Assembly (NCBI GenBank): GCA_903813345.2
Contig: CAIIXF020000007.1
Span: forward strand, 38,858,671 to 38,922,670
Length of the DNA: 64,000 nucleotides
Direction: 5' to 3'
Source: Owenia fusiformis
Taxonomy: Eukaryota; Annelida; Polychaeta; Sabellida; Oweniidae
Part shown: positions 1 through 31,666 of the stretch, in pieces
Position numbering within the stretch: the first letter of the stretch is position 1
Layout of the letters: every line of letters starts with the position of its first letter
Notes under the pieces: model-generated
What the model saw: the letters and a program-made list of their open reading frames with translations, nothing else
Told to the model about the DNA's origin: nothing
Database searches by the model: none
Translations under genes and position numbers: made by a program

Positions 1-3000
1 GTGTTGTTGTGCGAGACACCACAGCTTGGACTGTGGGGCGTGTGTGTGAGATTCTACCAGAGGCTGTAATAAATGAACAGTTCCTGAAACCATTGTTAAT
101 CTCACTTGTTGAAGGTCTCAACTCTGAGGCCAGGGTAGCAGCCAATGTCTGTTGGGTAAGTAAACACATTATTACATTCATTTGTTGAAGGTCTCAACTC
201 TGAGGCAACGGTAGCAGCCAATGTCTGTTGGGTAAGTAAACACATTATTACATTCATTTGTTGAAGGTCTCAACTCTGAGGCCAGGGTAGCAGCAAATGT
301 CTGTTGGGTAAGTAAACACATTATTACATTCATTTGTTGAGGGACTTACTTCTTGGGTCAGGGTAGCAGCCAATGTCTGTTGGGTAAGTAAACACATTAT
401 TACATTCATTTGTTGAAGGTCTCAAATCTGAGGCCAGGATAGCAGCCAATGTCTGTTGGGTACTTTGTACTAAGAAATACTGAACGAAGAATTTAGTTTT
501 TGTTGATGAATTTATCAGCACTCCCAATTGTACTGCACTTGATTTCCCTTTTGCCGAAACATAGCTGTTTCAGTAACAAGATCGCTTCAGTTCCGGTTGA
601 GGTATATCATAAATCATCCCAATCGGCACAAACATGTAAAAGCATCATATGTTTCTGGAAAACAAAGTGATTTTGCATGAAATAGTTCATGGGAAACATA
701 GCTGTTTCAGTAACAAGATCGCTTCAGTTCCGGTTGGAAAGTTTGGTAATACTTTTTACTTTTTCCTTGATTACTCGAGGTATATCATAAATCATCCCAA
801 TCGGCACAAACATGTAAAAGCATCATATGTTTCTGGAAAACAAAGTGATTTTGCATGAAATAGTTCATGGGAAATCAATTTATTTTCCTAGTCAATTTCC
901 TAGTTTGAAGAGTACAGTGACTGTACAGTGTCTTTGAATGACAAATGATTTTGTGTGACTTATGTGAATGTCAAGATTATTGAATCAAGCAGCTAACTTA
1001 AACACAATTTCTTATACAATCAAGCACATCACCAAAGAAATCAACTATTTATCAAAATAATATTTGTGATTGTTTCTACAGGTATTCTCTTTTTATTATG
1101 TTTACAGGCATTCTCCAGTTTGGCCGAAGCAGCATATGAACAAGCTGCCGAACAGACTGCCCAGGATCACCATGACGATAGTGTAGAACCACCCACTTAT
1201 TGCTTGTCATCATACTTCGAGCCAATCATAGAAAAGTTGTTGGAGACAACTGACAGGTTAGTTACCTTCAGCTTTTTTCATTCAATCCAAGAGAGTATAT
1301 TGATTTGTCCATTTGTCCTCATCCAATCCATTTGAGCCTATGGATTTGCCCATTTCTCCACAATATTTTTTCACCATTAGTCCAGTTACAGATTTGTTAC
1401 ATATCTTTACAGACCTGATGGCAATCAACACAATCTGAGGAGCGCAGCTTATGAGGCCCTTATGGAACTTGTCAAAAACAGCCCTAAGGTATGTACATGT
1501 ATGTTGTAAAAGCTGTATATCTGAACACCTCTCAGGTCTGAATACTTCTCGATGTGAAAGCTTTTTCTCTATCCCATTTTTATGTCACCACCAGAAGTGG
1601 TGACATCATATTGTTATTATAATCTCAACTCCTCTGTGGACGTCATTTGGTGTCTGTAAAAAATTGGGTGTGTATTTCTATCATATACTCCTGTACACAC
1701 TGCAAGTCATTTGTGGCATTTGAAGAGATGTTCATGAATGGTTACTTTTTGAGAAAGTAATTATAATGATTATTAAAAAAGGCACCTACTAAAAGGATAT
1801 ATCAGGGCCCAGGCTAGGCTAAGTTAACATTTTGGTGATCTCAACAAGGTGCAATTTGCATGTTATATTATGATTAATTCAATTCACTTATTTTTTCCTG
1901 CTTTAAAACTTTACAATAAATTGTTTACTTATATGAACATGACTTGATGTGATTGTTCATTTAAATGACAATTCTGAGAGTATACTAGCATTCCTAAGTG
2001 CCATGTTATTTCTCTCTTTCAGGATTGTTACTTCACAGTACAGAAGACTACCATGGTGATATTAGAGAGGTTACAACAAGTCATACAGATGGAGAGTCAT
2101 TTGCAGTCCTCGTCAGATAGAGTCCAATTTAATGACCTACAGTCATTGCTTTGTGCAACATTGCAGGTTTGAATTAGATATTTGAAAGACTCACACGACA
2201 TTAAAAACTATGAAAAAAAACTATTTACTTGAAGTGACCTATTTGCATTTTGCATGCTAACTTAATTCAGCAAATATATCCCACGCGACTGACTTATTTT
2301 TCAAAGAGTGCAAAAAATGATATGCCTGAACTAAATAATTAATATCTCAATAACTACTGAATGAATCTGGATAAAATTTTCACAAACAGAAGATAAATTG
2401 GCCTGGCTCATGAAAAAAATGTTCTCATGAATTTTTTACTTAAATAAACAGGACTGGGTATAAATATATCATGAATACTCCTCCGGAATCCGCCGCTTCG
2501 CCCCTGTGGAGATTCAACGTCTGGTCAGAATCCAAAACTGAATTTGCAGCGATCGAATGTTCATTTTTCAGTTCAGAAAATATTTTTTATTTCTATTTTC
2601 GATGACCATTATTGGCTTCCAAGAGCCTAAAGAGCTCGAAATCGCAATCCATTTCCTCCACATGTTTGTTGTGATCGTATTTGGCCGCCATTTTGTACGA
2701 TTTGTTCACTAAAAACGACTTAAACACTGTTTAAATCGTTGAATTGAGAAATATTTTTCGAAACATCGCCATTTCTAGGTCAACAGGAAGTCCCCACGTA
2801 AGGACTAAATAAATCGGGCAATCTGATTGGATCATAAGACCGGCGGGAAAAAGTTAAGTTTTTGAAAGTTTAAATTCGACTGGAGTCGCCGGCAGTTGCC
2901 GGGGATTGATAAGCACGGGCGACTACGCTCGCCGGTAGCATGCTAAAGGTTAAACTGACTTACCAATTCTTGAACCAATGAATCCAATATTTGTATATTA

Positions 3001-6000
3001 TTTCTAGAGTGTTCTACGTAAAGTAACACCTGAGGATGCCCCCAAGGTGTCGGATCCCATCATGCTGGCTCTCCTGCGAATGTTTGAAGGTGCAGGACAG
3101 GCAGGGGGAGTGCAAGAGGATGCCCTGCTTGCAGTGTCAACACTAATAGAAGGTAACTATATTAACCACAATAGGTAACTATAGTAGTGCAGTCAGAATG
3201 AGGGTTTGGGCGTGCGTTCAGAGGGATTTTATGGGACATAATTTTTCATGTTGCTAGTATGATTTTACATATTTTTATGGATTATTAGATCTTAGTTTTT
3301 CAGCTTTTAGATTTTGTGGCCATTTTACCCCCCATGGGCTATAATTTGGACCCCTACTATAAAATTGGGCTAGAACTCCAAAAATACTAAGTAGAATGTA
3401 TCCAAATTACTAAGATATATTTGTATAGGCTAACTGAATATATGATAAAAATTTCAAGTCACATGGTGAAGTGGTTGCAATGAAAACGGATAAAACATAC
3501 CCTTCAGGTGTTGATTTTCAGGCCATTTTTTCAAAAATGATAGAGTCATTTCATGCATATTTTATCATCATTGTGTTAGGAAAGGTTAAAATATGAATAG
3601 AAAACTTCTATAATATATTACCAACAAACTTATATAAAGATTAGTCCACAGGATCTCAGATTTTGGCCTTATATGGGTCCATGATTTATACAGGGGCCTA
3701 TTTCACAGATTCGAACCCCCACATTGGATGGATGCTATAACTTTTGAAATAAGGGAAATACAGGTCTCATTTTTCAGATCTTCATAAATGACTGGTTTTA
3801 AGTACTGTATCATACTTTGGGAGCTGTTATGTGATTGGTTGCTATGGTAACCAGGGTTTTATGGAAATTCGGATCCCCACATTGGATGGATGTTACTATT
3901 TTTAAAATAAGGAATATAGGTGTCTCATTTTTTCAAGTCTTAGACAATGATTGATTTTAAGGATTGATTCAGACTTTGGGAGCTTGTATTAGACTGGTTA
4001 CCATGGTAACCAGGGTTTTGTTGAAATTCAGATCTCCACAATTGATGCATGCTATAACTTTTAAATACAGGCAGATACAAGTATAATATTTTCAGATCTA
4101 AAATAATAATAAAATGTGTATATTGTATTAAACTTTGGAAGCTAGGATTTACTTGGTTGCCATGGTCACTATGTTTCATTGTAATGGTAACTGTCGTTTT
4201 TGTTTTTAGATTCACCTTCATTCTAGATAGGTCAATACATGATATGAAATACCAAATTGCCATTTTATTCATAATTTTGGGATTTTTTCTATTTTATATG
4301 ATTTACATGCTCATGACTCAATAATACAAGAGATGCACAAATTGTTCGGCTCATAAAATATTAAATACTATACTAGTAAACAATACATGTACATTTATGT
4401 CTCACAATATTGCCTCATTCCATACCACTAGTTCTCACAAATATTCTGACTCCTAATTTGTTCATCTGTACTCATCATTACTTTTTCATTTTGCACAATT
4501 GCCTTTTGATTTAAATATCAACCATTTCTGTTGGAATGAAGGCTTGTTTTGACCATTTTGGAGAGGAGGATCCTCAGGGGATTTCATACATTCATGCAGT
4601 ATTGGGCTTGGCAGAATGGGTTAAGATTGGTCCCTTGGGGTTCACTGTATATAAAATTTGGCTGGGGTCCTAGGCTGAACCCTCAGATATCAATATGTTC
4701 CCATACCAATCTGTCAAATTTGAATGTATTCCCATACCAACCAAATTAATGCCCAAAAGCCATACCAAATGCCCAAATATAGGATCAATGTGATATCAAA
4801 TATCCAGATATAAAAACATGGCCATTCAAAATGTCTAATGCCCCAAGAAGAAGGCAGATCTTTCAGGAAAACAACCCAAAAACAACCTCATATACCTCAT
4901 ATTAAGGATATATACTAGATCAATGCCATATTACAAGTGAGGGGTAACATATTTTCCAAGACCATTCTCATACCAGTAAGTGGAAAAATCTGACCATTGC
5001 CATACCTCAAGTCATAATTTGGAGGACATTCTCATTTCTCATGTCAGATCCTAAAATTTAGGTCTATTGCCATACCAAATGTCTGAAGTACCCCACCTGA
5101 GCCAAGGATCCCCTCAAGGTTTATATAAAGTGAACTCCCTGGGAGACTGGTGGGAATGTTTCCACTTCCACATATAGGATTTGTCATTCACCCTCTTCAA
5201 AGGTGGGAGAGTTCATCATTGGCTCCAAAGTAATTCATTGCATTACATTAGCTGCTATGAAAGCAGTCAAGGACCAATCTTGAAAGACAGGAAGAGTTGA
5301 AATGTCAACACCTTCATAAGAGAGGGTAGTACTGTTCTGTTTTGGAGAATATCTCATGTGAACCAGCTCATATCATAATCTATTGATGTCAGTTAAAAAA
5401 TGTATTTTTGTAATTTTGCTGTACTTTTGCAGGTGAACAATTCAACTTTGGATTTTATTGTGTCAGGAATTTCTATATTGTTTCCTATTATGAAGAAGAC
5501 AACGTTAAGAACCCCAACTTATGTGAACTCTGTCCCTTTAGATGTCAGAAGCTCAACCAAACCCCTGTAACTGCAAACTTAGGACGACGTACTGTGTGAA
5601 GCTATATTAGCCTTCAATGCGCGCGTTACTGAATCTGAACAAAAGAAAAATAAATCAACTGAAACTGAAGACAAACAATTCTTAAAGTTGTTTTCTTCAA
5701 TAGGAAACAATACAGAAATTCCTGAGACCATAAAATTCCAAAGTTAAATTGTTCATCTGCAAAAGTACAGCTGAATTACAAAAATAACTGCCACTATGAT
5801 GAGCTGTTTCACATGAGATACTAGTATTATCAAAAACAGAACAGTGCTGCCCTCACTTATGAAGGTGTTGACATTGCAACTCTTTCACATTTGAAGAGGG
5901 TGAATTATCAAACCTGTGTATGGAAACATTCCCACCAGCCTAAACCCAGCTCTACCAAGCCAAACACTGCATGAATGAACTATGAATTCCCCGAGGAATT

Positions 6001-9000
6001 ATTAGTACCAGAATGGTCAAAAATAGCTAAAATGATGAGTAAAAACAACTTAGTAGAATATGTGTGAGAACTAGTAGAATGGAATGAGGCAATACTGTCA
6101 GATATACATGTAAAAATGCTAAATTAGGAGTAAAATGATAATTTTGAGCAATTTTGTGTTCAAAGTTGTGTATTGACCATTCTCAAATGAAGGTAAATCT
6201 GAAATCAAAAATGAAGTTTCCATGACAATGAAACATGGTTACCATGGCAACCAAGTAAATTGTAACCTCCAAAGTCTGACACAATACACAAGTCGTATTA
6301 TTTTTTAAGTTCTGAAAAGCTGATATCTGTATCTGCTTGAATTTAAAAGTTATAGCATTTATCAATTGTGGAGGTCCAAATTTCAATAAAACCCTAGTTA
6401 CCATGGTAACCAATCAAGTTTCAGCTCCCAAAGTCTGATTGAATACTTAAAATCAATCATTGTCTAAGATCTGAAAAAATGAGACATGTATCACCCTTAT
6501 TTCGAAAGTAATAGCATCCATCCAATGTGGGGGTCAGAATTTCCCTAAAACCCAGGTTACCATGGCAACCAATCATATGCCAGCGCCCAAAGTATAACAC
6601 AATACTTAAAACCAGTCATTTATGAAGATCTGAAAAAATGAGAACTGTATTTCCCTTATTTCAAAAGTTATGGCATCCATCCAATGTGGGGGTTCGAATC
6701 TGTGAAACAGGCCCCTGTATAAATCATGGACCCATATAAGGCCAAAATCTGATATTCTGTGGACTGATTTTTACATAAGATTGTTGCTGACATATTACAA
6801 AAGTTTTCTATTCACATTTTAACCCTTCCTAACAGACTGGTGACAAAATATGCACGAAATGACTCTTTCATTCCTGAAAAATTGGCCTGAAAATTGACAC
6901 CTGAAGGGTATGTTTTATCCATTAACATGGCAACCACTTAACCATGTGACTTGAAATTGTTATCATATATTTAGTTAGCCTATACCAATATACCATAGCA
7001 ATTTGGAAACATTCCACTGAGTATTTTTGGAGTTCTAGCCCAATTTTATAGTAGGGGTCCAAATTATAGCCCATGGGGGGTAAAATCGCCACAAAATCTA
7101 AAAGCTGAAAAACTAAGATCTAATAATCCATAAAAATATGTAAAATCATACAAGCAACATAAAAAAATATGTCCCATAAAATCCCTCTGAACGCACGCTC
7201 AAACCCTCATTCTGACTGCACTATAGTAATCCACTCAGCACAAGTTTAAAGGAATATATATTATATTAAAGGAATGTTCAATCCAAAATGTGTGAAAATT
7301 GAAGCTATAAGCATTTTGGGAACCATTGTTGTTTGTTAACGATCCTGTTATGTTGCAAATGTTGTAGTGCTAGGTGAGGCCTTTATGAAGTACATGGATG
7401 CGTTCAAACCCTACCTAGCAATAGGACTGAAGAACCATGCTGAGTACCAAGTGTGTATTGCTGCTGTAGGCATTGTGGGAGATCTCTGTAGGGCTTTAGG
7501 CGACAAAGTGCTTCCGTTCTGTGATGAATTGATGCAACTTCTCATGGAAGACCTCAGTGTAAGTACCAACATCAGTGTCAGTACAAACATCAGTGTAAAC
7601 CAACATCAGTGTAAATCAGTATCAGTGTAAATCAGTATCAGTGTAACTACATGTAGTGCCAAATTAATGACGAAAACAGTTATATGAACTGATATAAGTT
7701 TAGTCTGTAGAAGTTATTGCAGTTAACAAAGTTTCACGAGTTTATCTTGTACATTTCAGAATAATGGCCTACATAGATCTGTCAAGCCTCAGATACTGTC
7801 AGTGTTTGGTGATATTGCCTTGGCCATTGGACCTGCATTTAAAAATTATTTGGAGGTTATCCTGAACACTCTCAACCAAGCCTCTCAAGTTACTGTTACA
7901 GACCAGGTAAGAAAAAATGAAAAAGTTAAATTAACTGATTCAGATTAATTTTATTAGCCACCTGCAGCGAAGGATTAACTCTGCGACTCGATAAAAAAGA
8001 ATTATCAAAGCTCATCAAGAATGGGCGATCTTGCACAGGTACTCATATAAGAACCTCAATGTCTGAATTTGGTTGGTGTTCGCATCTAAACTGAATGCTT
8101 GTCAGCCTTGTCAGGATGTATTGATGTATTGATAAAATGATGATGTTTATGTGAAGCAGATATGTTCTTGTAATTGGCCTAATACCCAACAATAAGTTGT
8201 CGGTTTAACTAAATCTATTACTAAGGACAACTATATTTTTCTTACTCGGGTGGCTATGATATGATAGTTTATGAAATGATAAATATACATGTAATATCTA
8301 ATAATAGGATGACTATGATATGATATGATATATTTTACTAGGATGACTATGATATGATATGTTATATTTTACTAGGATTACTATGATATGATATGTTATA
8401 TTTTACTAGGATTACTATGATATGATATGTTATATTTTACTAGGATTACTATGATATGATATGTTATATTTTACTAGGATTACTATGATATGATATATTT
8501 TACGAGAATGACTATGATATGATATATTTTACTAGGATGACTATGATATGATAGACTACTTAAATGAGCTGAGGGAGGCATGTCTGGAGGCTTATACTGG
8601 CATCATCCAAGGACTAAAAGGTGATATGACAACACCCTCTCCCACAGGTTAGTGGTGTTTACAGGCCAGGCCATGCCAAAGTTTTCCTCTGGTTCACACT
8701 CTCAAGAATTACACACATTGCAAGAATTAATATATGTACTTTCGAGAATGATCCATATCTTTATTTCAAAGATATTTTTAGCAATGGATAGTCAGAATTT
8801 TAGGGTATCTCTGGTATTAAAGTTATATATGGTCATAACAAATACACCTTTGTTCATATATGGTCATAACAAATACACCTTTGTTCATATATGGTCATAA
8901 CAAATACGATTCAAGTGCACCTGAAGTAGTTGATTTATCTCATATATTATTAGAAACAAAACTATAAAATATTTCTTTTGTTCTTTGTTTACACTTATAA

Positions 9001-10926
9001 GATGTTTGATGAGTTGATACAATTAGAACCTTGAGCTGAAGCTACTAAATAATGAGATGATATTGTAACATGTTATAATAACAAGTTATCTCTTTACTTA
9101 TCAAATGCCAGCTCCTCCTGAATTAACTTATAGGATGAACTACTTGTTCTTGGGTTGACAGCTAATACTTACATGCATTATCACATGTATTATATCATAT
9201 CTTCTTTCATATCTGTTGCCTTGAAACTTCAAAATGTCCACACAATTGGCAGCAATTCTGAAATTTCACTGATTTATGCTTTTTTATGTGCAAATTGGGG
9301 ATTTTTAACAGTAGAGTGTAAATATTATAACGTGACATATTTCAAATTCATGAATAATTGGTTCATTTGTGATTTGGGACTCTGTTTTCTATTAATAATA
9401 AAATGTATTCTTACCGACGTATGTGAATGGGTTTGTGTTTCAGCTGATGTCAACCTGATGTTGCCGCATATTGAACACATCTTTGGATTTATTGAGTTCA
9501 TTTACATGGATGCTGACCACAGTGACGGTTGCATTGCTGCCAGTTGTGGCATCATAGGGTAAGTTGTGACATAATGTGGTGAGTTGTGACATAATGTGGT
9601 AAGCTGTGACATGATGTGGTAAGCTGTGACATTATGTGGTAAGCTGTGACATGTAAGTTGTGACATAATGTGGTAAGTTGTGACATAGTGTGGTAAGTTG
9701 TGACATTATGTGGTAAGCTGTGACATGATGTGGTAAGTTGTGACATAATGGGGTAAGCTGTGACATTATGTGGTAAGCTGTGACATTATGTGGTAAGTTG
9801 TGACATAATGTGGTAAGCTGTGACATAATGTGGTAAGTTGTGACATAATGTGGTAAGCTGTGACATGATGTGGTTAGTTGTGACATAATGGGGTAAGCTG
9901 TGACATGATGTGGTAGGTTGTGACATAATGTGCTAAGCTATGCAATTCTAAGACCAGGCTGTGTTTAATTTTTTACAGCTGATGATGTTTAGAGCAGGAA
10001 AGACATAAAGGTGTCAGTTTTAGAAATGACTTTGTCAAACTGAATAATGTTGATGATAAAATCTAATAATTTGAATATTTTGAATAGCCAGTTTGGTTAA
10101 GTCTTACCTTACTTCAAAGGAAATCTACAAAAATGGGTGTATATGAAGGAATACACAGAATATGAGATGATTAGGAACTGATGGCTATATTATAATACAA
10201 TGGATCCATCACATTTTCAGTGATCTACTGGTGGCATTTGGACCCACTATCCTGCCAATGGTAGAGAAAGAAGTGATCCAATCTGTGCTAACCAAGGGAC
10301 GCAGGTCTAAGACCAACAAGGCTAAGTCACTGGCCAACTGGGCCACCAAGGAGGCTAGGAAATTAAAGAATGCACAGTCTTGGTGAGTGAACATTCACAA
10401 GTCCTGTTTTGGATTTGCTGTTTCTCATCCTTGTTAATAATTCACCATTCAAAGGTTTGAATAAGACCACCCACTTGGGGAGGGTTGGAAACTGGACATG
10501 CAGTGCTTTCCAAGAGGGAGGTATTTGATTTACTATTTCGTACTGGGAGTAGGGACTTTTCAAATGTATATTCCTATGTTTATATTTGACCAATTTGCTT
10601 GAGTGGTGTCCAATGTAAGATGCCTTATGTATTAAACACTATCATGCTTTTCAGAAGTTAAAAGTTTGTAAAAATTGCTTCATGAATTTGATTCTCGGTA
10701 AATTATTATTTCCACAATAATGTGAATGTTAAATAAGTAATATAATGCTTGAAGTGGTCAAATCATTGTTGTTCCCATCCTAAAATTGTACCAAATGAAA
10801 GGTGGAGATAAAATAGAAATGCAATCTAACATGAAAACTTCTTAAAATGAAAGAAACGCAATGGAATTATCAGCTGATCAAGAGAATGTTGAATTTTAAG
10901 AATATAATATCATTTTCTTTTCCAGA
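1..10926 (+). CDS. KPNB1: Importin subunit beta-1, C-terminal half (10 exons, 5' part outside window)
   Basis: Importin beta-1 is the HEAT-repeat receptor that carries importin-alpha/NLS cargo through the nuclear pore and releases it on RanGTP. Coding exons read from splice sites and continuity with the family: 1-155 (partial), 1108-1256, 1413-1488, 2023-2166, 3008-3152, 7368-7558, 7760-7906, 8536-8647, 9444-9558, 10221-10382, plus one base of the stop codon at 10926. Phases agree at every junction, giving about 464 residues, roughly half the usual 876. Recognisable stretches include [87 protein letters not shown] and [19 protein letters not shown], all typical of importin beta-1. The protein ends KLKNAQS, close to the usual family terminus. 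Several introns carry tandem repeats that start at the splice sites. Very sure of identity; exon edges are by eye. Confidence 0.96.
111..465 (+). repeat. 76-bp tandem array copying a KPNB1 exon end and its splice donor
   Basis: Copies start at 111, 187, 263, 339 and 415, so the period is exactly 76 bases with about 4.7 copies. The first copy is the last 45 coding bases of the first visible KPNB1 exon plus its donor GTAAGT and about 30 intron bases. The later copies lie in the intron and keep the exon-like part and, in four of five, the GTAAGT donor. Copy 4 is the most diverged at its start. Confidence 0.93.
557..870 (+). repeat. Direct duplication inside KPNB1 intron
   Basis: A segment of about 45 bases beginning GAAACATAGCTGTTTCAG is present at 557 and 693. 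A following segment of about 95 bases beginning AGGTATATCATAAATC occurs at about 600 and 778. The second copy has about 35 extra bases between the two parts. The copies are nearly identical, so the duplication is recent. No coding content. Confidence 0.85.
2450..2945. other. GC-richer block in KPNB1 intron, possible old mobile element
   Basis: Unlike the AT-rich intron around it, this stretch holds several CpG-rich words (CCGCCGCTTCGCCCC near 2490, GGCGACTACGCTCGCCGG near 2920). No ORF, TIR or target duplication was found. It may be a fragment of a dispersed element. Low confidence. Confidence 0.25.
3187..7221. mobile_element. 4.0-kb foldback (long inverted-repeat) element in KPNB1 intron
   Basis: The left arm begins GTGCAGTCAGAATGAGGG at 3187 and the right arm ends with its reverse complement at 7221. 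The two arms pair, with about 85-90% identity by eye, along at least 3187-4600 with 5950-7221, and again along 5150-5510 with 5690-5950, leaving a loop near 5510-5690. The element is flanked by TATAGTA at 3180-3186 and 7222-7228, a probable 7-base target duplication (5 bases if the ends are drawn slightly longer). No credible gene lies inside; scattered ORFs are under 115 codons. The superfamily is not recognised. Confidence 0.85.
4625..5146. mobile_element. Small insertion inside the left arm of the foldback element
   Basis: The left arm of the foldback element contains about 520 bases that the right arm lacks. The ends resemble an inverted repeat: GGGTTCACTGTATATAAA near 4638 against TTTATATAAAGTGAACTCCC near 5120. 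The interior is rich in repeated CATACCAAATG-type words. This looks like a second, smaller element nested in the first. Confidence 0.55.
7552..7640 (+). repeat. 16-18-bp repeat copying the KPNB1 donor after the 7368-7558 exon
   Basis: The exon end plus donor (CTCAGT|GTAAGT) is followed by about five further copies of CAGTGTAA with spacing 18, 18, 16, 16 and 16. The first is the real splice site. Later copies read GTCAGT, GTAAAC, GTAAAT and GTAAAT, so they are weakened donors. Confidence 0.8.
8297..8535 (+). repeat. About 30-34-bp array copying the acceptor and start of the next KPNB1 exon
   Basis: Seven or more units end in TTTTACTAGGAT plus (G/T)ACTATGATATGAT. The last unit is the true acceptor TTTACTAG|GATGACTATGATATG of the exon at 8536. 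Upstream units keep the TAG acceptor and the first coding bases (D-D/Y-Y-D-M). A looser first unit lies near 8247. Each unit is a potential 3' splice site. Confidence 0.88.
8835..8910 (+). repeat. Short tandem repeat, about 31 bp, in KPNB1 intron
   Basis: Three near-perfect copies of ATATGGTCATAACAAATACA followed by CCTTTGTTCAT. Confidence 0.8.
9559..9955 (+). repeat. 20-bp minisatellite starting at the KPNB1 donor after the 9444-9558 exon
   Basis: The unit GTAAGTTGTGACATAATGTG begins exactly at the donor and is repeated about 19 times with small changes (GTAAGC, GTGAGT, ATGATG). Most units therefore carry a donor-like GTAAGT or GTAAGC. Reading frames through the array give repetitive MSQLTT-type peptides, which are artefacts. 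Confidence 0.92.
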
Positions 10927-13802: not shown

Positions 13803-14843
13803 ACATTCAAATCTAACAATTGGTGTATGGGGGTGGGTACACTGAATAAGTTTCTGTCACTCATATAATAAACACATGATCTCTTTATACCAAGTAAAAC
13901 TACCAATGAGATTTTCTGCAATTTTTTCTAATTTCCAGGCACCGCAAAATACAGGATGTCCTTGGAGTCTCTACACTTTACACAGACTTTGTATTGTGAT
14001 TGTAAAGAGACATGGACACCCTGTATGTGTACTCAACAATTGTAAATACTAGCACTCCACGAAAATACTTTCCAAGTACAGGGTTATGTAAAAACAGCCA
14101 AGCTAGATTTGAATGTTTGCATCAATTTTTGTTATGTAATACGAAAAGTAACCAAAAGTTGGGTTGAATATGTCCTCAAAGGAAGATTTGTATACAATAT
14201 GATGTACTAAAATCCAACTATCAATATCTATTGCCAAGTTCGATTTGAATGTTTGCGATAATTTGTTATTAAAAATATTATATAAACCCACACTAGGGTT
14301 AAGATGTCCTCTTTGTACCATACGACCCTTCTTCAAATTAAGGGACATTTTTGTAATAAAGTTAAAATAGTAAAACAGATTTCGTTTTGTTGCTTTTAAA
14401 TGTTGTAATTTCTTCAAATATTGTGTCATTCCAATGCTTGCGCTGATAGGTGTTATTTTCTGTATCTTCGTCAACATTTCTTTTTATACCACGGATTTCT
14501 ATTGTCATCAATTCAATTACTAGTATATTAGCCAACTAAATTAGCGGATGATTTAATCCTCGGCCTCACAGAGCAGAAAACTGGTGCAAGATTGGGTGAG
14601 GCAAAATCATCCAGTTTTCTGTTCAGAGACCGAAGATTTTTCGTCGCTATAGTTGTTTATACGTTTTTCTTCGACAAAATATTCTTCGTTCACACAATAA
14701 AGCTGGTCTAATGAACGCCTCTATAGACTACTTAGACCAACAAAAGGTGTATGGGTGGCCAGGCACCACTCCGCATTTATGTTACCCTTTGCATTAGTTC
14801 GACTTGCTTCTCAAAAGAGAGCTTAGTTTATAACTTGACTGCT
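13803..14843. repeat. Tandem 1.8-kb unit, copy 1, left part (A)
   Basis: This segment is essentially identical to 31667-32710. It is the first part of a duplicated unit whose remainder lies at 30899-31666, beyond a 16-kb LINE-based insertion. It includes a 124-codon open frame on the minus strand (14103-14477) that is identical in the other copy; no family is recognised. A hairpin near 14550-14635 pairs CCTCGGCCTC..CAGAAAACTGG with CCAGTTTTCTG..GACCGAAG. Confidence 0.88.
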
Positions 14844-15191
14844 GAGACGACCCCTGAAATGGAGTAGCCATACTTTTTTTTGGAGCTCCTGGAAAAGTTT
14901 CTTATTTGCTCATTTTTGACAACATAGTGAGATTTATATAGGATTCTAACTACATACACTTGTGTATAAAGGACTAGAGGCCATAATACAGCAACTTTGG
15001 ATTAAAACCGTCAAATATTTGGATATATTTTGGACTTCAACTTTTTTGTATGTAAGTAAATATAGCTGAGCAATATTACTGCAGATTACATATACACATA
15101 AACATTGTTTAAGCCTATTATGTGGCTCTGTATAAACACTAAATAGCCACTTCTCTATATCAACATACACAAGTAAGGGACCATCTCAAAC

Positions 15192-16741
15192 ATGGAGAAT
15201 ATTGTTAAAAACACAGAACTATGGGTTAAGCTAGAAGCCAGAGGAATGGGCAGAATGAATGAATATGAACTACTTGACAAACTTATATCACAGGCTGATG
15301 ATAGAATTCGACCGGATGTAATAAAAAGAGACAATATAATTGGTGTGCAACTATTCAGTGGCTCCTACATAATTTATACTGACAGTCTTGGAACAAAAGC
15401 CAACTTATTATCTCTTGGCTCTTTATGCGTCAATGGAAAGCAGTTCAAAATAAGTGACTACTTCGCAACACCCAGCGCATCGTTTGGAGCAGGACGAAAC
15501 TCCACACGAGTATCAATACATGGTATACCACTTCATGTTTCCAACTCGGAAATTGAGCAGTGGGTGGACTCATTTGCAGAACGTACCTCAGACGTGAAAT
15601 TCCACAGCAGAAGAGCGACTAATGGAACACGACACAGTGTACTCACAGGGCATAGGTTTTGTTATGTGAGAAAAATAGTCAAATCGCAACCTAGATATTT
15701 AGACTACACAATACCCAACCCCTTCAATCCTCCAGAGCTAATCGAAATAGACAGAGTAATATATCACGATGGACAAGAAATCAACTGTCCACATTGCAGA
15801 GGCGATCATAATATCAATGACTGCCCAAAAAGATCAAAACCAAAGTGCTTCCAATGTGGTTTGGAAGGTCATCGCAAATCAGAATGTCTTCTGAGAACAT
15901 CCGATGAAACAACGAAGCCAAAAATCACTTGCTGGAAATGTGGTATTGATGGACACCGGAAATCGGCATGCCCGATGGAAACAACAGGTCGTCAGAAGGT
16001 CCAGGAACAGACAAAGCCGCAAGAACCAACAACTAAGAGTGCAGAGAGTGGTGCCAAAATAGCAGAGAAGCTCATAACACGTGCCCTTCAACCAGAAGAT
16101 AGCTCAATATCTTCTGTTTTTTTTTTTTTTTTTTTTTTTTTTTACTAAACTGACTTATATTTCCTATAAGCTCTGCTGTACCCCCTGATTTTGCCTCTGT
16201 TCCAAATCATGTTCAAACTACATTGTAAGTATATTTGCACTCATTGGTATAATTGTTTTCAAGAACACTTTTGACATTATGCCAAAACTTTACCTCATTT
16301 GGTCTATTATGATGTGACAAACCAATACTTTCGTTCAAATAGATGAATACATAGGCAGGTCCCCAACTGCATTTAATAGGTATGACAACACACATGTATT
16401 ATTTTGTCTAATATTGGGAATATACACTTTTTAAAGTGTCACCCAGTTCATATAAGCCTATTGTATTTTGTGTGTATTTCAAATAATAAATAAACATAAA
16501 CATATCTTCACCAGATGCCATGAAAATGGCAGATAAGTTCTTGGCTGAGTGCCACCAAAATACTTCAACCCCCGCTAAGAACATCTCAGATAATGCCAGT
16601 TGTGACTCTACAACTAAGCAAAAATCCTCTCTTAAAGTGCATCTTAAGAGAAAAGATATAAGCCCCCTTGAAATGAACAGTGACTCAAAGAAAAATAAGC
16701 TTGGATCCCCTATCATACTAGACATTGACAACAATGGTTAA
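15192..16741 (+). pseudogene. LINE ORF1: nucleic-acid-binding protein with three zinc knuckles, split by a retroposon
   Basis: The ORF is open from 15192 to the insert at 16115 and resumes in the shifted frame at about 16510-16741. The insert plus its duplicated target is 395 bases, which exactly accounts for the frame change, so the parent ORF was about 384 codons. Residues 199-211 hold a variant knuckle (C-x2-C-x3-H-x4-C). Residues 219-232 and 247-260 hold two canonical C-x2-C-x4-H-x4-C knuckles (GLEGHRKS, GIDGHRKS). The N-terminal part resembles gag/RRM-like ORF1 proteins only loosely. Expected role: binding LINE RNA in the retrotransposition particle. As it stands the first part would run into about nine phenylalanines from the poly(T) tract. 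Confidence 0.85.
16115..16501 (-). mobile_element. Poly(A)-tailed retroposon inserted in LINE ORF1
   Basis: The insert begins on the plus strand with TG plus about 27 T (a poly(A) tail on the minus strand). It is flanked by ATATCTTC at 16107-16114 and 16502-16509. The 387-bp body has no recognised tRNA-like promoter boxes and no long frame. It could be a SINE, a truncated LINE end or a processed transcript, mobilised in trans by a LINE. Confidence 0.82.
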
Positions 16742-18878
16742 TTTGTTATTTTCATATAACAAGCATATCTATGGAAAACCTACTGCTATGGACATGGAAT
16801 GTGAATTGCAACACACTGTTGTTGCAGGACTGTGGATTATATTATATACCTTTTATTTACATTAAATGGTAAATGTTTTAAGTGTAAATGTAAGGGGATT
16901 AAGGAATAAAAGAACCAGGTTCACTTTTTTTCAGTTTTTGAAAAAGCATAAAATAGGTATTTGCTGTATACAAGAATCATTTATTACAGATGATGTAGCA
17001 AAAACATGGGAAAAAGAATGGAAAGGGCAAATGTTTTATAATGCTGGAACAAAGCACAGTAAAGGTGAAATGATTTTAATTAGTGATAAATGTACAGAAA
17101 TATCAAATATGCAAGTCATACATGCTGAGTCAAGAATTTTAGGTATTTCATGTCAATATTCTGATAAGCCATTGTATATTTTTAATATCTATGCTCCAAA
17201 CCAAACAAAGGAAAAAATTGACTTCTTCAAAAAGGTAACCAGAACTATAAATCAAAAAAATATACTTGCATCATCTGTTTTGATTGGAGGTGATTTTAAC
17301 TGTACATTAAGTAAATTAGACAATATATGTGGTGAAATGCACAGTCAAATTGAAATCAAAGCCTTTAGTAATATGGTAGAAAGTTTAAAACTAAACGATG
17401 TTTGGCGATTACAACATGACGACTGTAAAGAATATACATGGAGGCACAAATCAAAAGCAATAATGAGAAAAATTGATTTTATTTTTACGAATGAAACCTG
17501 TTTTGAATATGTTGAATCCTGTGATATATTAAATGTACCAAACTCAGATCATAAAGGTATATACATGCACTTAGATTTCGGTGAATTTAAAAGAGGGCAA
17601 TCATATTGGAAATTCAATGATAGTTTTTTAAAAGATATAGTATATGTAAACATGGTAAACAATTTAGTCACAGAAATCACCCAGTTAGAAGAATTACAAT
17701 CATTACAAAAATGGGAGTATTTTAAATCCAAAGTACAATCAATCAGTATTCAATATGGAAAAACTAAAGTTAAAGAGAAACGACAAAATTTAGAAGGTAT
17801 CAATAAATCTTTGAAAAATGTTTCGATTAAGTTAACAAAAGATCCCCAAAATGTAGACCTGGTAAACCAAGCAAATCACTTAAAACTCATGTATGATAAC
17901 ATTTTAGCTGTAGAAACCAGAGGTGCCCAAATAAGGGCAAAAGTTCAATGGGCTGAAGAAGGTGAAAAAAGTTCCAAGTATTTTTTAGGTTTAGAAAAAA
18001 GCAGAGGAAAGAGTAAAATAATGAAATCATGTAGAGTAGAAAATAATTTGTACACCAATCCCAATGATATCATGGGTGCTCAAGTAAACTATTATAAAAA
18101 TATTTTTAGTGTAAACAGTAATTACTCCAGAAACAAACTGAATGAATATTTACATGGAGTAGTACTGCCCTCTTTAAATGAAGAGGAAATGCAATATTGT
18201 GAAGGACAAATAACTTAAGCTGAATGTACTCAGGCACTCAAAAATATGTCAAATACTTCAAGTCCAGGTCTTGATGGACTCACTACATGTTTTTATAAAT
18301 GTTTTTGGAACAAGATAAATGAACTTTATGTATCAGCTATAAATGATTGTTTTAATAATGGACAGTTGTCTACTTCCCAAAGACAAAGAGAAATTACTTT
18401 ATTATATAAAGGCAAAGGTCTGCCAATGGAGTGTCTTCCAAGTTGGAGACCAATATCATTAACAAACACTGATTATAAAATTTTAGCAAAATCATTAGCA
18501 AATAGGCTCAGAAAAGTAATTGGAAAAATAATTAGTCATGATCAATGTGGATATATACCAGGTCGCACACCAGCTACTGCTTTAAGACTTATTGATGATG
18601 TAATAGAACATTTATGTAACAATGACGATGAAGGTGTACTTGTAGCACTGGATTATTCCCGTGCGTATGATAGTTTAAATAAAGAGTTAATGTATGACAC
18701 ATTCCAAATTTTTGGTTTTGGTCCTGATTTTATCAAATGGATAAAAACACTTAATTCAAATGGGCTAAGCTGCATTAATTTTGGAGGTTGGCTCTCCGAG
18801 TGGATACCACTAAAGTCAGGTTTATCTCAAGGGTGCCCTGCATCTGCTTTTTGCTTTATTTTATGCTGTGAACTAGTG

Positions 18879-20385
18879 AGTAGTATATGGCGGGCCTTTC
18901 GACCCCCTACCTGCACCTGCACTATTCCACTTCCACCGGAAGTGACGTCATAGGTCACGTGTTCACTTCCACTTCCACCGGAAGTGACGTCATAGGTCAC
19001 GTGTTCCACGTTCCACTGAAAGTGATGTCAAAGGTCACGTGGTGGTGCACTGGGAGTGACATAACTGGCTCAAAGGTTACTCATAATTGATAAGAGAGTG
19101 GTTAAGTGATGATAAGCTATCTGTCTACTTCGTGGATGTTTCATTGTTATAGGTCAAAGGTTGATAACGAACTGATAAAACTGTGAAAAAGATAAATGCA
19201 GAACAATTTCGACCAATCACATGACTGGAATATACCAATTTGACCAATTATATTTGACACATACTTTATATGTTGCATAAGCTGTAGAAAAATCATGCCA
19301 CTTTATATCACTGGTCAAAGGTTATGTGATAAGCTATCTATCCACTTCATGGATGTTTCATTAATATAGGTCAAAGGTTGATAACAAACTGATGAAACAG
19401 TAAATAAGATAACTGCAGAACCATTTCAACCAAACAGGTTTTAGCTTGCAGAATTATTTTAACCAATCAGAGTACAGTAATTTTTAACCAATCAGGTTTT
19501 GACTTGCAGAATCATTTTAACCAATCAGGGCACAGTATGTTTGGATTATTTTAACCAATTATGTTTAGAGTTTCAGAATAATTTTAACCAATCGGGTTGC
19601 GGTATATTCTCATCCAATCAGATAAAAGAAAATCACCCAATAGAGGAGAATTTCTGCACAATTTAACAAGTTCAGACAGGTATTGAATATTTATAACCAA
19701 AAAGTCTCCTGAGTTATTTTAGAATATTTTTAAATTGTCAAGTTGATCAATTTGTGCTAATTTTTTCTCCAAACGATTACTTGATTCTTACTTTGGAGTC
19801 ATTTTAGAATATTTTTCCAATCTTCACGCTTGAGTGATTTTCGCTTATTTCTTGAGTTTGAGGTATTTAATCACCAAATGGACACAGTATTCTTACTCCC
19901 GATACATTTAAGAGCATTTTTACAATTTTCACGCTTGAGTGATTTTTGGTGATTCCTGGAGTTTGAGGCATTCTTTTACCAAACGATCACTTGATTCTTA
20001 CTCCTGGGTCATTTTAAAGTATTTTTTGAAGTGTCACGTTTCGGCGATTTCAGTCACTGTTGATCGATTTCTGCTAATTTTTGGAGTTTAAGGCATTTTC
20101 ACAAAATAGACACCCACCCACTATACAAAATAACACGCTTTAATAGGCATCTGTTAATTTAACATGCCACTGATAAAAATATAAACCCCTACAAGATAAA
20201 TAATAAAAAATGCTAACGTTAACAGTTTTACAGCAGAACATTTTCGACCAATCAAAGTGTATATGCAAATGAGCTGCAGAACCATTTCAATCAATCAGAT
20301 CAGATTATTGCACTCTTCGACCCCACCGCCGCCGCCGCCACCGCCGCCGCCACCGCCGCCACCGCCGCCGCCGCCACAGCCGCCA
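18879..20385 (+). repeat. Left terminal inverted repeat of the Polinton-like element
   Basis: From the tip inward: a pyrimidine-rich CCCCCTACCTGCACCTGCAC; two copies (18929-18963, 18966-19004) and one worn copy (to 19042) of a motif with CCGGAAGTGACGTCA and GGTCACGTG; a diffuse array of AACCAATCA-type words with GCAGAA spacers (19200-19625); about four 105-110-bp degenerate repeats (19720-20110); and a (CCG)n-type tract (20325-20385) at the inner edge. It matches the reverse complement of the right TIR at high identity. No coding content. Confidence 0.88.
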
Positions 20386-21792: not shown

Positions 21793-22065
21793 AGGTACGA
21801 CAAATTTCCAATGAACATGCGTGACACATACGGGATTCGCGTGACAAATCCGAACAAATTGCGTTCGGTTTTTCCCGGCGTTCGTATTTTTACCGTATCG
21901 TAAACATATTTCGAAAAAATTTCTACAGAAATATTTTTGCTTGACAATTACCAGGTAAAATGCGTATTTTGCGTGACATTTTCTGTCACGCAAAAAAAAC
22001 TGGCGTGACTTCAAATTCTTCAGCAAATGCGTGACAAATACGCAAATTGCGGGACAGTTGACAGG
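21725..22065. mobile_element. Probable insertion between ATPase and middle ORF
   Basis: The stretch has a different texture: GCTCGCTACGCTCGCGATAT, a run of about 31 G (21760-21791), and several copies of GCGTGACAAATACG-type words. It ends near GACAGTTGACAGGCCTG, which overlaps the ATPase C-terminal codons. No clear target duplication was found. Frames through the G run give polyglycine or polyproline and are not genes. Confidence 0.45.
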
Positions 22066-22943
22066 CCTGCATCATCCATTGGACCTGGATACGTAGCATC
22101 CATCTGAGTTGGTTGAACAATGGTATTTGGTCGGAATTCCGACATATCTTGCCTCTGTTGAGCAGTGGAGCTCCCTGCCGTGTTATAAAAATGTTGAAAT
22201 GATGTATATGGAACACTTTCTGCAGATTGCTGCAATGCATTAGGCTTAAGCCTCGAACCATCTTCAGTTTCTTGCTTCAGATCCACCACTAAGTAACCAA
22301 ATGGATTTTCCGTAGCTTGTCTGTAAATGTCAAGTAAAATATGTGTCTTTCCAGGATACATTTGAGATGCCAAAACACTTATCTGTCTTTGATCCCTCGG
22401 GTTCTTGAACAGAACCAAGTAATGGCTGTTTAAGCTCATTGTTCTGCTTTCTCCATTGGGTGGGAAAATATTTTGTTGTAGCGTGATAATGGATATATTT
22501 TTGTGATGAGAACCCGCTGTGTATAGCAATGTAACTGCCTTGTTAAGGTCCGCCATGAGGTCATCTATCACAACCAAATTGGTCACATTTCCATCGAAGT
22601 AATCGGGCTTCATCAAGTCATCGCAAAGTCCCATAACAAACTCGATATGAGGCTGTTTTCTCTTTATTTCTGCATACAAAGGCTGCCATTGTTTGAAGAA
22701 CCATACTATTCTTTGTGGTGGTGGATTGATTAATTGTTCGGCTCTATCAATAAGGTCGACAACATAGGTTGTCTTTCCACATCCAGTAGGACCTGCAACA
22801 ATTTTAGTAAATGGATGCCTGAACTGTATAGGTGAGTCGAGATCGAAGTTAGTCTCATCTTTTTTGTGAATGTTTCTCATATGTCTCAGAAGAATATCCT
22901 TCCTGGCAAATGTGCCAGAACACACGGAGCAAATATAATCCAT
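22020..22943 (-). CDS. Packaging-type (A32/FtsK-HerA-like) ATPase with N-terminal zinc finger
   Basis: 307 codons starting at 22943. Residues 5-26 form a classical C2H2 finger (C5, C8, H21, H26). Residues 51-58 are a Walker A loop GPTGCGKT, and 123-128 are a Walker B strand LVVIDD. ITLQQN at 153-158 looks like the glutamine-containing motif after Walker B, and GSHHKNIS and LFKNPRD are further conserved-looking blocks. Such ATPases are thought to pump DNA into capsids in Polintons and related viruses; that role is inferred here. The last 15-20 residues appear to be read from a later insertion, so the native C-terminus is probably lost. The start is the first Met, immediately before the finger. 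It could be a degenerate but still open gene. Confidence 0.75.
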   Translation of the reverse strand: MDYICSVCSGTFARKDILLRHMRNIHKKDETNFDLDSPIQFRHPFTKIVAGPTGCGKTTYVVDLIDRAEQLINPPPQRIVWFFKQWQPLYAEIKRKQPHIEFVMGLCDDLMKPDYFDGNVTNLVVIDDLMADLNKAVTLLYTAGSHHKNISIITLQQNIFPPNGESRTMSLNSHYLVLFKNPRDQRQISVLASQMYPGKTHILLDIYRQATENPFGYLVVDLKQETEDGSRLKPNALQQSAESVPYTSFQHFYNTAGSSTAQQRQDMSEFRPNTIVQPTQMDATYPGPMDDAGLSTVPQFAYLSRIC

Positions 22944-23053
22944 GTTGCCACGTAGATGAGGTTGCGCTGAATGAATGAATCAAGCCTGCTTTTCACTTAT
23001 ATAGTTTTAATACATCCCTCTGTTGAATAAAATATGATAAAGGCACAAAAGGT

Positions 23054-23110
<57 letters not shown>

Positions 23111-23161
23111 GGTGGGGTCGAAGAGTGCAATAATCTGATCTGATTGATTGAAATGGTTCTG

Positions 23162-23777
23162 CAGCTCATTTGCATATACACTTTGATTGGTCGAAAATGT
23201 TCTGCTGTAAAACTGTTAACGTTAGCATTTTTTATTATTTATCTTGTAGGGGTTTATATTTTTATCAGTGGCATGTTAAATTAACAGATGCCTATTAAAG
23301 CGTGTTATTTTGTATAGTGGGTGGGTGTCTATTTTGTGAAAATGCCTTAAACTCCAAAAATTAGCAGAAATCGATCAACAGTGACTGAAATCGCCGAAAC
23401 GTGACACTTCAAAAAATACTTTAAAATGACCCAGGAGTAAGAATCAAGTGATCGTTTGGTAAAAGAATGCAGCTCATTTGCATATACACTTTGATTGGTC
23501 GAAAATGTTCTGCTGTAAAACTGTTAACGTTAGCATTTTTTATTATTTATCTTGTAGGGGTTTATATTTTTATCAGTGGCATGTTAAATTAACAGATGCC
23601 TATTAAAGCGTGTTATTTTGTATAGTGGGTGGGTGTCTATTTTGTGAAAATGCCTTAAACTCCAAAAATTAGCAGAAATCGATCAACAGTGACTGAAATC
23701 GCCGAAACGTGACACTTCAAAAAATACTTTAAAATGACCCAGGAGTAAGAATCAAGTGATCGTTTGGTAAAAGAATG
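23162..23777. repeat. 308-bp tandem duplication within the right TIR
   Basis: Two essentially identical copies start CAGCTCATTTGCATATACAC at 23162 and 23470 and each ends GGTAAAAGAATG. Absent from the left TIR. Confidence 0.93.
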
Positions 23778-24685
23778 CCTCAAACTCCAGGAATCACCAA
23801 AAATCACTCAAGCGTGAAAATTGTAAAAATGCTCTTAAATGTATCGGGAGTAAGAATACTGTGTCCATTTGGTGATTAAATACCTCAAACTCAAGAAATA
23901 AGCGAAAATCACTGAAGCGTGAAGATTGGAAAAATATTCTAAAATGACTCCAAAGTAAGAATCAAGTAATCGTTTGGAGAAAAAATTAGCACAAATTGAT
24001 CAACTTGACAATTTAAAAATATTCTAAAATAACTCAGGAGACTTTTTGGTTATAAATATTCAATACCTGTCTGAACTTGTTAAATTGTGCAGAAATTCTC
24101 CTCTATTGGGTGATTTTCTTTTATCTGATTGGATGAGAATATACCGCAACCCGATTGGTTAAAATTATTCTGAAACTCTAAACATAATTGGTTAAAATAA
24201 TCCAAACATACTGTGCCCTGATTGGTTAAAATGATTCTGCAAGTCAAAACCTGATTGGTTAAAAATTACTGTACTCTGATTGGTTAAAATAATTCTGCAA
24301 GCTAAAACCTGTTTGGTTGAAATGGTTCTGCAGTTATCTTATTTACTGTTTCATCAGTTTGTTATCAACCTTTGACCTATATCAATGAAACATCCATGAA
24401 GTGGATAGATAGCTTATCACATAACCTTTGACCAGTGATATAAAGTGGCATGATTTTTCTACAGCTTATGCAACATATAAAGTATGTGTCAAATATAATT
24501 GGTCAAATTGGTATATTCCAGTCATGTGATTGGTCGAAATTGTTCTGCATTTATCTTTTTCACAGTTTTATCAGTTCGTTATCAACCTTTGACCTATAAC
24601 AATGAAACATCCACGAAGTAGACAGATAGCTTATCATCACTTAACCACTCTCTTATCAATTATGAGTAACCTTTGAGCCAGTTAT

Positions 24686-26414
24686 GGTATGAGGTTCCAT
24701 ATCCATCCGCCAAAAGGTATGACCCCTATATAGTCCATTTAAAAACTCGTGGTATTGTTCTAAATAACGCCATAGTTGGCTTCTAGGGTACCTAGTATGC
24801 CACTATTTGGTATCAAAATAAAGAGGAGGAGTTCAACTTTCATTTGAATTACGAAAATAGCGATGTAGGTCAAAAATAGTTCCGACGGGAGCATGTTTAC
24901 TACGCGTTTGCCCATCATATCAGAATTGAGGAAGTGGTAGCAAACGCGAGTCACAATAAAAGGACGCTGATATCTCAAAAAGTAACCTGACTCCCTATAA
25001 TTTGATGTAGATCAATCGAACCCCTATATGAACAGGTACATTTTGATATATAACACTATGGGGGATAAGCGTTTTATAGTTGGTCACGAACGCCATATGT
25101 GCAAAGTATTGTTATGAATTTTCGAATTTGGTGTTGGATTACGGTACTCATACCTTAATATGAGGCCTAAAATTGTCTGCTAGTTGGCCAGAGACCAATA
25201 TTCTAGCAGAATTTGAGAACAGAATCGATTTTTTCGTTCTGCGTAGGGCAAACAATGATTTGAAATCACTTTCAACCATTGTGTGAGTATAAGAATGGTC
25301 ATAAGAGGCCCGTGGAGGGTCTGGAATGAAAGAAAGCCCTCTGAAATTCCGTCAAAATTGCAGGTTATTTCTTCATTTTTTGCTAAAATTACATGATTTT
25401 CAGGGCCCATATCTCAGTGAAATTGCTACAATGTAGCGATTTTTCATTTTTACACGCTAGATACACGTGTCAGGTCGACAGAAACAGTAAGCATGTGTGA
25501 TTTTTAAATTGCTACATTGTAGCAATATTTATTTCAAAATACAGGTGTGAGGGAAACTGCAATTTAGTTAGATTTGGGCGAAAATGGCCAAATTTCAGTC
25601 AAAATCCTCGGGACACAGGGCCTTTGTCTTAGATTTAGTCAATGATGCAACTCTTAGTAGAAGGTGTGCCATATAGGGAATGAAAGCTGTTTGTCAGACG
25701 TATCATTTTCTTCAATAAACTCAGAGATAGTCAGGTTAGATTTGTGACGTCACAGTGGCAAAGTTAGACTAGCATATTTAGACGTATTTGGGGTAGGGCA
25801 AATTAACCCTTTCAAGCCTAAATGGATAAATTTTTCACATATTCAGCCATTTCCGACGTTTTTATGCATTTTTGAACTAGAAATGATATTTTCTGCCAAA
25901 AAAAGTTGCAGAGACAAAAATCAGTGTGATGTCATAACACATTAAGGTATGAGGTTCCATATCCATCCGCCAAAAGGTATGACCCCTATATAGTCCATTT
26001 AAAAACTCGTGGTATTGTTCTAAATAACGCCATAGTTGGCTTCTAGGGTACCTAGTATGCCACTATTTGGTATCAAAATAAAGAGGAGGAGTTCAACTTT
26101 CATTTGAATTACGAAAATAGCGATGTAGGTCAAAAATAGTTCCGACGGGAGCATGTTTACTACGCGTTTGCCCATCATATCAGAATTGAGGAAGTGGTAG
26201 CAAACGCGAGTCACAATAAATGGACGCTGATATCTCAAAAAGTAACCTGACTCCCTATAATTTGATGTAGATCAATCGAACCCCTATATGAACAGGTACA
26301 TTTTGATATATAACACTATGGGGGATAAGCGTTTTATAGTTGGTCACGAACGCCATATGTGCAAAGTATTGTTATGAATTTTCGAATTTGGTGTTGGATT
26401 ACGGTACTCATACC
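24686..26414. mobile_element. Composite-transposon-like insertion in the right TIR
   Basis: Two 469-bp units in the same direction (24686-25154 and 25946-26414), differing at only about one base, flank a 783-bp middle part. Each unit starts GGTATGAG and ends CTCATACC, an 8-bp TIR. The whole is flanked by TTAT (24682-24685, 26415-26418), and the uninterrupted left TIR shows a single TTAT at the matching place. The inner junctions both read TTAA (25155-25158, 25942-25945). This fits two MITEs, each once flanked by TTAA, moving together with the DNA between them. No transposase is visible. Confidence 0.82.
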
Positions 26415-30898: not shown

Positions 30899-31666
30899 AA
30901 CTTGACTGCTCGCAGGCAGGGTACATGCTCCTATGTCAAAATTTCAGTGAAATCCTCTTGAAACATGAAATATTAATTGTATGGCATATACAAGACCATT
31001 GGTAATGTTACCATAGGGAATCGGACCTGCAGGCCTTACCATCTATACATGTTTTTTCTGTTTTGAAAAATTCGATATGTATGTATATTGTATGTATATT
31101 TCATAGCTTTTCAAAGAAATCTACAAATATTTCGTTGCGGTTTTATCTTTACATCGTAATTTCAATTACCGCCATCACTATTCAAACGAGTTACCTTGAA
31201 ATATCAAGACGACGTGCTATTCTCATACTTATAGAACTCAATGTGACTGTCATTCACCATTTATTAAGCAGTAAAAATTAATTTGCTTCATGGATGGCAA
31301 GATTTCCTGTTGAATGTCGAGCCTCGCATCATACGAATGTAATTTTAGGCGATCTGTCTGCATGGGGTGATACTTAACGGTTATACTCCAAGGTTTTGGA
31401 CCGATATAAAGATGGCCCATGTTATATACAGATCGATCGCCACCTTCATTTTGAAATATGGAAATTATAATCAACTAAATATAGATGTCGCATTCGTTCA
31501 ATTCGTCTACAATAAATTGACAGAACACATAATTGATGACAATCACAAATTAATGATAATAAAAATGACAATAAAAACTTGAATCAAAAGTCAAAAGTCT
31601 TTTCTGGGTCACAGCGAATGGCATGATTTCCTCGAGTCTCTTCAGTTGCAAGGCAACCATACTGGG
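30899..31666. repeat. Tandem 1.8-kb unit, copy 1, right part (B)
   Basis: It matches 32699-33459 almost base for base; visible differences are a 7-bp insertion near 31590 and CCAAGG against CCTAGG near 31390. It joins the A part at 14843 once the LINE is removed. The junction TGACTGCT|CGCAGG is intact in copy 2. Confidence 0.88.

Follow-up and report, generated by a model that had tools for sequence, protein, structure and literature searches.

The closest described counterparts of the arrays discussed here are found in amphioxus, where they are called mirages: intron-exon boundaries are duplicated in minisatellite fashion, on the 5′ or the 3′ side, in units that measure 10-72 bp in Adh3 and 150-160 bp in the globin genes (PMC3087553). 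According to that source, splicing is regular, array length is unstable, the mechanism is unclear and the phenomenon is perhaps general in cephalochordates. It is the sole account of animal minisatellites over exon-intron borders that we found in the open-access literature, where we also found no count of such arrays at exon ends. A possible route to small tandem duplications is described in mouse and human cells, in which staggered breaks with little homology give rise to them (PMC8355091).

The arrays of Owenia fusiformis resemble mirages, as the latter are described in that source, in several respects. First of all, their tandem units span the exon-intron boundary, in five cases within the window (the whole stretch of 64,000 nucleotides that was analysed) and in 28 cases read by eye in a sample of the genome. 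Second, both 5′ and 3′ boundaries are duplicated, here at 15 donors and 13 acceptors. Third, mirage units run from about 10 to 160 bp, and 31 of the 32 units considered here measure 16-154 bp, the remaining one, at locus L024, being 260 bp. Finally, splice signals are kept in many but not all copies; here 8 of 336 dinucleotide bases have changed in 21 arrays. Mirages, on the other hand, were described in single cephalochordate genes, whereas in Owenia fusiformis 608 exon ends were counted and set against an expected number; the splicing and length instability of mirages are known in amphioxus, while the arrays here are known from the sequence of one assembly. They also recall the intron gain by tandem duplication described in potato (PMC4974935), where a small duplication likewise takes in exonic sequence and splice sites; unlike that case, the duplication here lengthens an intron already present, from one of its ends, and no new intron is shown. 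Furthermore, unit lengths of tens of base pairs and little homology at the joints of three two-copy arrays are reminiscent of fill-in at staggered breaks, although the breaks in that work (PMC8355091) were induced, in mouse and human cells, and are not tied to exon edges in that account.

At its left end the window carries, on the plus strand, the C-terminal half of KPNB1, modelled with 10 introns, all ten of them GT-AG (Table 1). The frame is continuous across these introns, and the product aligns in a single stretch to importin beta-1 residues 422-874. Arrays in the window were listed with Tandem Repeats Finder (TRF) at score 30, and four of the 20 KPNB1 splice sites are covered by them. A sequence-only reading had placed arrays at the splice sites of KPNB1 and PRIM1, and four arrays in KPNB1 and one in PRIM1 do include a real site; two more places in KPNB1, starting at 1077 and 3151, are graded weak because each is a short match between two copies that TRF does not list at score 30, and the one at the intron 5 donor adjoins an inverted-repeat element starting at 3185. 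The six KPNB1 introns then claimed are six places in five introns, 111-465 and 1076-1110 being the two ends of intron 1. Nor do the arrays start at the splice site, as was proposed; they straddle it, with an outer edge 69, 5, 18 and 17 bp inside the exon in KPNB1 and 42 bp inside in PRIM1, where the copy reads AT in place of the GT of the donor. Conserved coding sequence lies in the outermost copy of each KPNB1 array, which gives the direction as exon to intron; the intronic units thus derive from the exon edge by copying. Each array occupies one intron end, after which the intron continues into other sequence, and in the gene model the frame is intact when the exon-proximal sites are used.

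Table 1. Modelled introns of KPNB1 and repeats at splice sites of KPNB1 and PRIM1 (window positions)
Feature	Positions	Strand	Details
KPNB1 intron 1	156-1107	+	splice calls
KPNB1 intron 2	1257-1412	+	splice calls
KPNB1 intron 3	1489-2022	+	splice calls
KPNB1 intron 4	2167-3007	+	splice calls
KPNB1 intron 5	3153-7367	+	splice calls
KPNB1 intron 6	7559-7759	+	splice calls
KPNB1 intron 7	7907-8535	+	splice calls
KPNB1 intron 8	8648-9443	+	splice calls
KPNB1 intron 9	9559-10220	+	splice calls
KPNB1 intron 10	10383-10925	+	splice calls
KPNB1 intron 1 donor array	87-462	+	76 bp x5.0; exon end 155; 69 bp of exon in first copy
KPNB1 intron 1 acceptor, weak two-copy match	1077-1115	+	12/13 bases at 1077 and 1103, 26 bp apart; exon start 1108
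KPNB1 intron 5 donor, weak two-copy match	3151-3183	+	11 bp, AGGTAACTATA at 3151 and 3173, 22 bp apart; exon end 3152
KPNB1 intron 6 donor array	7554-7651	+	16-18 bp; exon end 7558; 5 bp of exon
KPNB1 intron 7 acceptor array	8305-8553	+	34 bp x7.6; exon start 8536; 18 bp of exon in last copy
KPNB1 intron 9 donor array	9542-9937	+	20 bp x20.1; exon end 9558; 17 bp of exon in first copy
PRIM1 exon 9 donor duplication	39805-40021	-	112 bp x1.9; exon end 39980; 42 bp of exon inside

Other repeats are present in the same DNA, whose G+C content over the window is 34.4%. KPNB1 intron 5 owes its length to an element at 3185-7223 with inverted arms (3185-3774 and 6634-7223, 92% complementary), flanked on both sides by TATAGTA as read by eye; it contains internal repeats of 159 bp, and repeats of equal period occur at locus L038. 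A dispersed repeat with the motif CACCAGAAGTGGT lies in KPNB1 intron 3 (around 1585), with two tandem copies in the kinesin gene L043 (around 8300-8460). Elsewhere in the window are a 40-bp array of 40.6 copies (35494-37119) and an exact 308-bp tandem pair (23160-23778). Three pairs of open frames are identical (31349-31579 and 33147-33377; 14106-14483 and 31970-32347; 24763-25011 and 26023-26271), and the identically repeated frames at 31006-33377, 14106-14483 and 24763-26271 are dispersed or duplicated repeats. From the look of their translations, we take the reverse-transcriptase-like frames on the plus strand at 15177-18950, and the minus-strand frame with a P-loop ATPase-like motif at 22023-22979, to be probable mobile elements.

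The wider question is whether arrays fall on exon edges more often than expected, and for this the genome (498,259,871 bases in 525 contigs) was sampled, with exon positions taken from Pfam searches for TCP-1, adaptin, myosin and kinesin. A first set of 49 loci, a subset of the genes found with many exons in little space, was picked before any sequence was viewed; exon models were improved by tblastn among paralogues, giving 252 exons in these loci, and PDB alignments tried for the missing exons left the gaps unbridged. The class of periods from 25 to 200 bp was chosen after these loci, and a rule (periods 25-300) was thus fixed in writing before 20 fresh loci were fetched (43,910 bp, 52 exons), found by the same Pfam searches with class-I tRNA synthetases added. 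The total sample comprises 69 loci of conserved genes with 304 exons and 608 exon ends; its loci are compact and come from conserved families, and its exon ends are the modelled ends of coding exons in one assembly. Under the null, each array is one duplication of a unit placed uniformly on exon ends and non-exonic DNA, with one duplication counted per array because an exon edge is possible only in the outermost copy.

The counts confirm that exon edges, splice site included, fall within small tandem duplications more often than expected by chance. By the automatic rule, periods of 10-500 bp give 25 junction arrays and 59 others over the 69 loci, with 9.4 junction arrays expected (P 4.8e-7), and periods of 25-200 bp give 22 and 23, with 6.1 expected (P 3.7e-9). 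Shorter and longer periods show no excess in these loci, with 2 junction and 32 other arrays at 10-24 bp (1.1 expected) and 1 and 4 at 201-500 bp (2.3 expected). In the fresh set, arrays lie over 8 of 104 exon ends and at 5 places elsewhere, with 2.0 expected at exon ends (P 1.1e-4); one of these five others (L051, 41 bp) sits, as read by eye, on an exon edge missed by the matches. The earlier suggestion that arrays gather at exon edges beyond chance is thus borne out by the 25 of 608 exon ends and again by the fresh loci. Either through their origin or through their survival, duplications at exon edges are about three times as frequent as uniform placement predicts, the cause being a matter of interpretation. 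The automatic rule counted three arrays that were rejected by eye (L044, 26 bp; L049, 40 bp; L004, 21 bp) and missed seven (L011; L016; L024, 83 bp; L032; L035, 76 bp; L035, 39 bp; L051, 41 bp) because the exon was unmodelled or the exon piece too long. A 21-bp array at L061 lies on an exon end and stands outside the 28 arrays read by eye, whose units are at least 25 bp.

These 28 junction arrays, 19 in the first 49 loci and nine in the 20 fresh ones, have units of 28-260 bp in about 2 to 34 copies, the most copies being in the adaptin-family gene L011 (82 bp x34, 2.8 kb). Together with the four KPNB1 arrays they form a set of 32, in which the exonic share of the unit ranges from 0 to 1 with a mean of 0.56 (KS against uniform, P 0.22) and two arrays begin within 3 bp of the junction. 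With so even a share and so few starts at the junction, the splice site is included in the duplicated segment without serving as its breakpoint. The reading frame has no visible influence on the arrays, 7 of the 32 units being multiples of three in length. Median identity is 95% in the 23 junction arrays of at least 25 bp and 86% in the 23 other arrays of 25-200 bp on the automatic lists, and in the three two-copy arrays the match extends at the ends by 2, 0 and 0 further bases. Two further observations belong to the sampled families. The kinesin gene L050 (G000:C2:23264000-23269900) was picked for its 159-bp array and excluded from every count; its 18 copies hold the acceptor with the first part of the exon, and the last of them continues into the exon. 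At G000:C9:37986009-37994334, twelve matches, all to roughly positions 18-84 of the myosin head, lie within 8 kb, and are perhaps tandem alternative exons.

Our preferred reading, which we consider rather probable, is that these are splice-junction minisatellites of the mirage kind, produced by recurrent small duplications at exon edges that are tolerated and then enlarged by ordinary minisatellite growth. A segment straddling the exon edge, mostly of 25-160 bp, is first duplicated in tandem, as the sequences show. The splice site at the exon body, that is, the first donor or the last acceptor, would continue to work and the extra copies would leave with the intron; the duplication would thus be tolerated because the exon-proximal site survives, which fits the intact frame of KPNB1. 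Some arrays then expand, reaching up to 34 copies, and the intron becomes longer; the copied sites show no visible retention by selection. Intron growth, one of the explanations offered by the sequence-only reading, is still a candidate, with an array of up to 2.8 kb observed in L011, and so is a bias at exon edges, whether in mutation or in survival. That duplications are lost in coding exons and free in introns is insufficient to make edges richer than introns; either more duplications at the edges or better survival there is needed. The copies give no sign of selection, and we lean towards a greater number of duplications, either at exon edges or throughout exonic DNA. A mutational excess in exon-edge DNA is favoured over selection as the source of the statistical excess, and fill-in repair of staggered breaks is a candidate cause.

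Exonic DNA as a whole might instead be prone to duplication, with duplications inside coding exons purged and those straddling an edge surviving by being spliced out, so that the excess would be a survivor effect. We regard this as unlikely, even though several features agree with it. The part of the unit that is exonic varies evenly between arrays, without centring on a fixed breakpoint, and the G+C content of junction arrays (38.9%) falls between that of exon pieces (42.3%) and those of intronic arrays (34.1%) and of the whole (34.8%). Arrays wholly within an exon piece number two by the automatic rule, one of which, at L032, is a junction array by eye. However, the exonic share shows no evident rise towards a wholly exonic unit.

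It is very unlikely that there is no bias at all and that the abundance of tandem repeats in the introns is enough to account for overlaps with splice sites, although our first tests pointed that way. Among the first 49 loci, with 95 of 108 modelled introns kept and 13 dropped, arrays covered 7 of 190 junctions (3.7%) against 14.8% of intronic bases, and a length-weighted test gave 7 junction arrays against 12.1 expected, thus no excess. The reason for this negative outcome is that most of the expectation came from four intronic arrays of 350-463 bp; at periods of 25-200 bp the same test had 7 junction arrays against 2 intronic ones. We set these tests aside, as long-period intronic arrays dominate their expectation and many exons were still missing. 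With better models and 141 complete introns, 8 junction arrays stand against 2.8 expected at 25-200 bp (P 0.0015), and 8 against 6.8 at 10-500 bp, which is no excess in these introns (P 0.35). A second detector, written for this analysis, gives 22 junction and 32 other arrays once array pieces are merged (7.3 expected, P 2.4e-7), 20 and 47 before merging (9.75 expected, P 7e-4), and, likewise before merging, 13 against 7.3 expected in the first set alone (P 0.02). The excess is thus clear with fuller exon models, with both detectors and in the fresh set. Equality with the expectation from repeat density, the outcome named beforehand as telling against the idea, is not what the 69-locus sample gives; the excess holds, though the first, cruder test had none.

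Selection could also have retained the copies as back-up sites, as the sequence-only reading had allowed, or as regulated ones, and an exact splice motif does recur in nearly all copies of some long arrays (33 copies at L011, unit 82 bp; 12 at L024, unit 91 bp). We compared copies with the array consensus in the 21 of 32 arrays judged to have enough of them, excluding the functional copy. The splice dinucleotides changed at 8/336 bases (2.4%) and the rest of the unit at 170/8,215 (2.1%; P 0.69), and away from the splice site the exonic (129/6,485) and intronic (41/1,730) parts changed alike (P 0.34). The seven positions around the dinucleotide changed at 44/1,169 (3.8%), above the rest of the unit. 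As copies within one array are non-independent, the comparison speaks for the absence of a strong signal and no more. The copied sites thus look neutral, with no sign of selection. The PRIM1 copy lacks GT and, with 7 of 32 units multiples of three, most inner sites would shift the frame. Selection for back-up sites therefore finds no support here, and we give it very little probability. An origin of the array-bearing introns themselves by tandem duplication of exonic sequence, a process documented in potato (PMC4974935) and proposed for amphioxus globins (PMC3087553), is extremely improbable, since each KPNB1 array fills one end only and the intron continues into other sequence.

Splice-junction minisatellites of the mirage kind probably occur in a phylum other than that of amphioxus, and their enrichment at exon ends has now been quantified. 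What was a curiosity of a few amphioxus genes becomes a pattern whose frequency can be stated (25 of 608 exon ends), with copies that are seemingly neutral. In a wider reading, which is possible and which we put forward tentatively, exon edges would be a germline hotspot at which about one exon end in 25 carries a junction minisatellite and from which introns grow at their ends; the process would be common to unrelated invertebrates and would contribute generally to the length of introns and to the raw material from which new splice sites arise. Why small duplications favour exon edges bears on how introns grow, how they are gained and how alternative splice sites originate.
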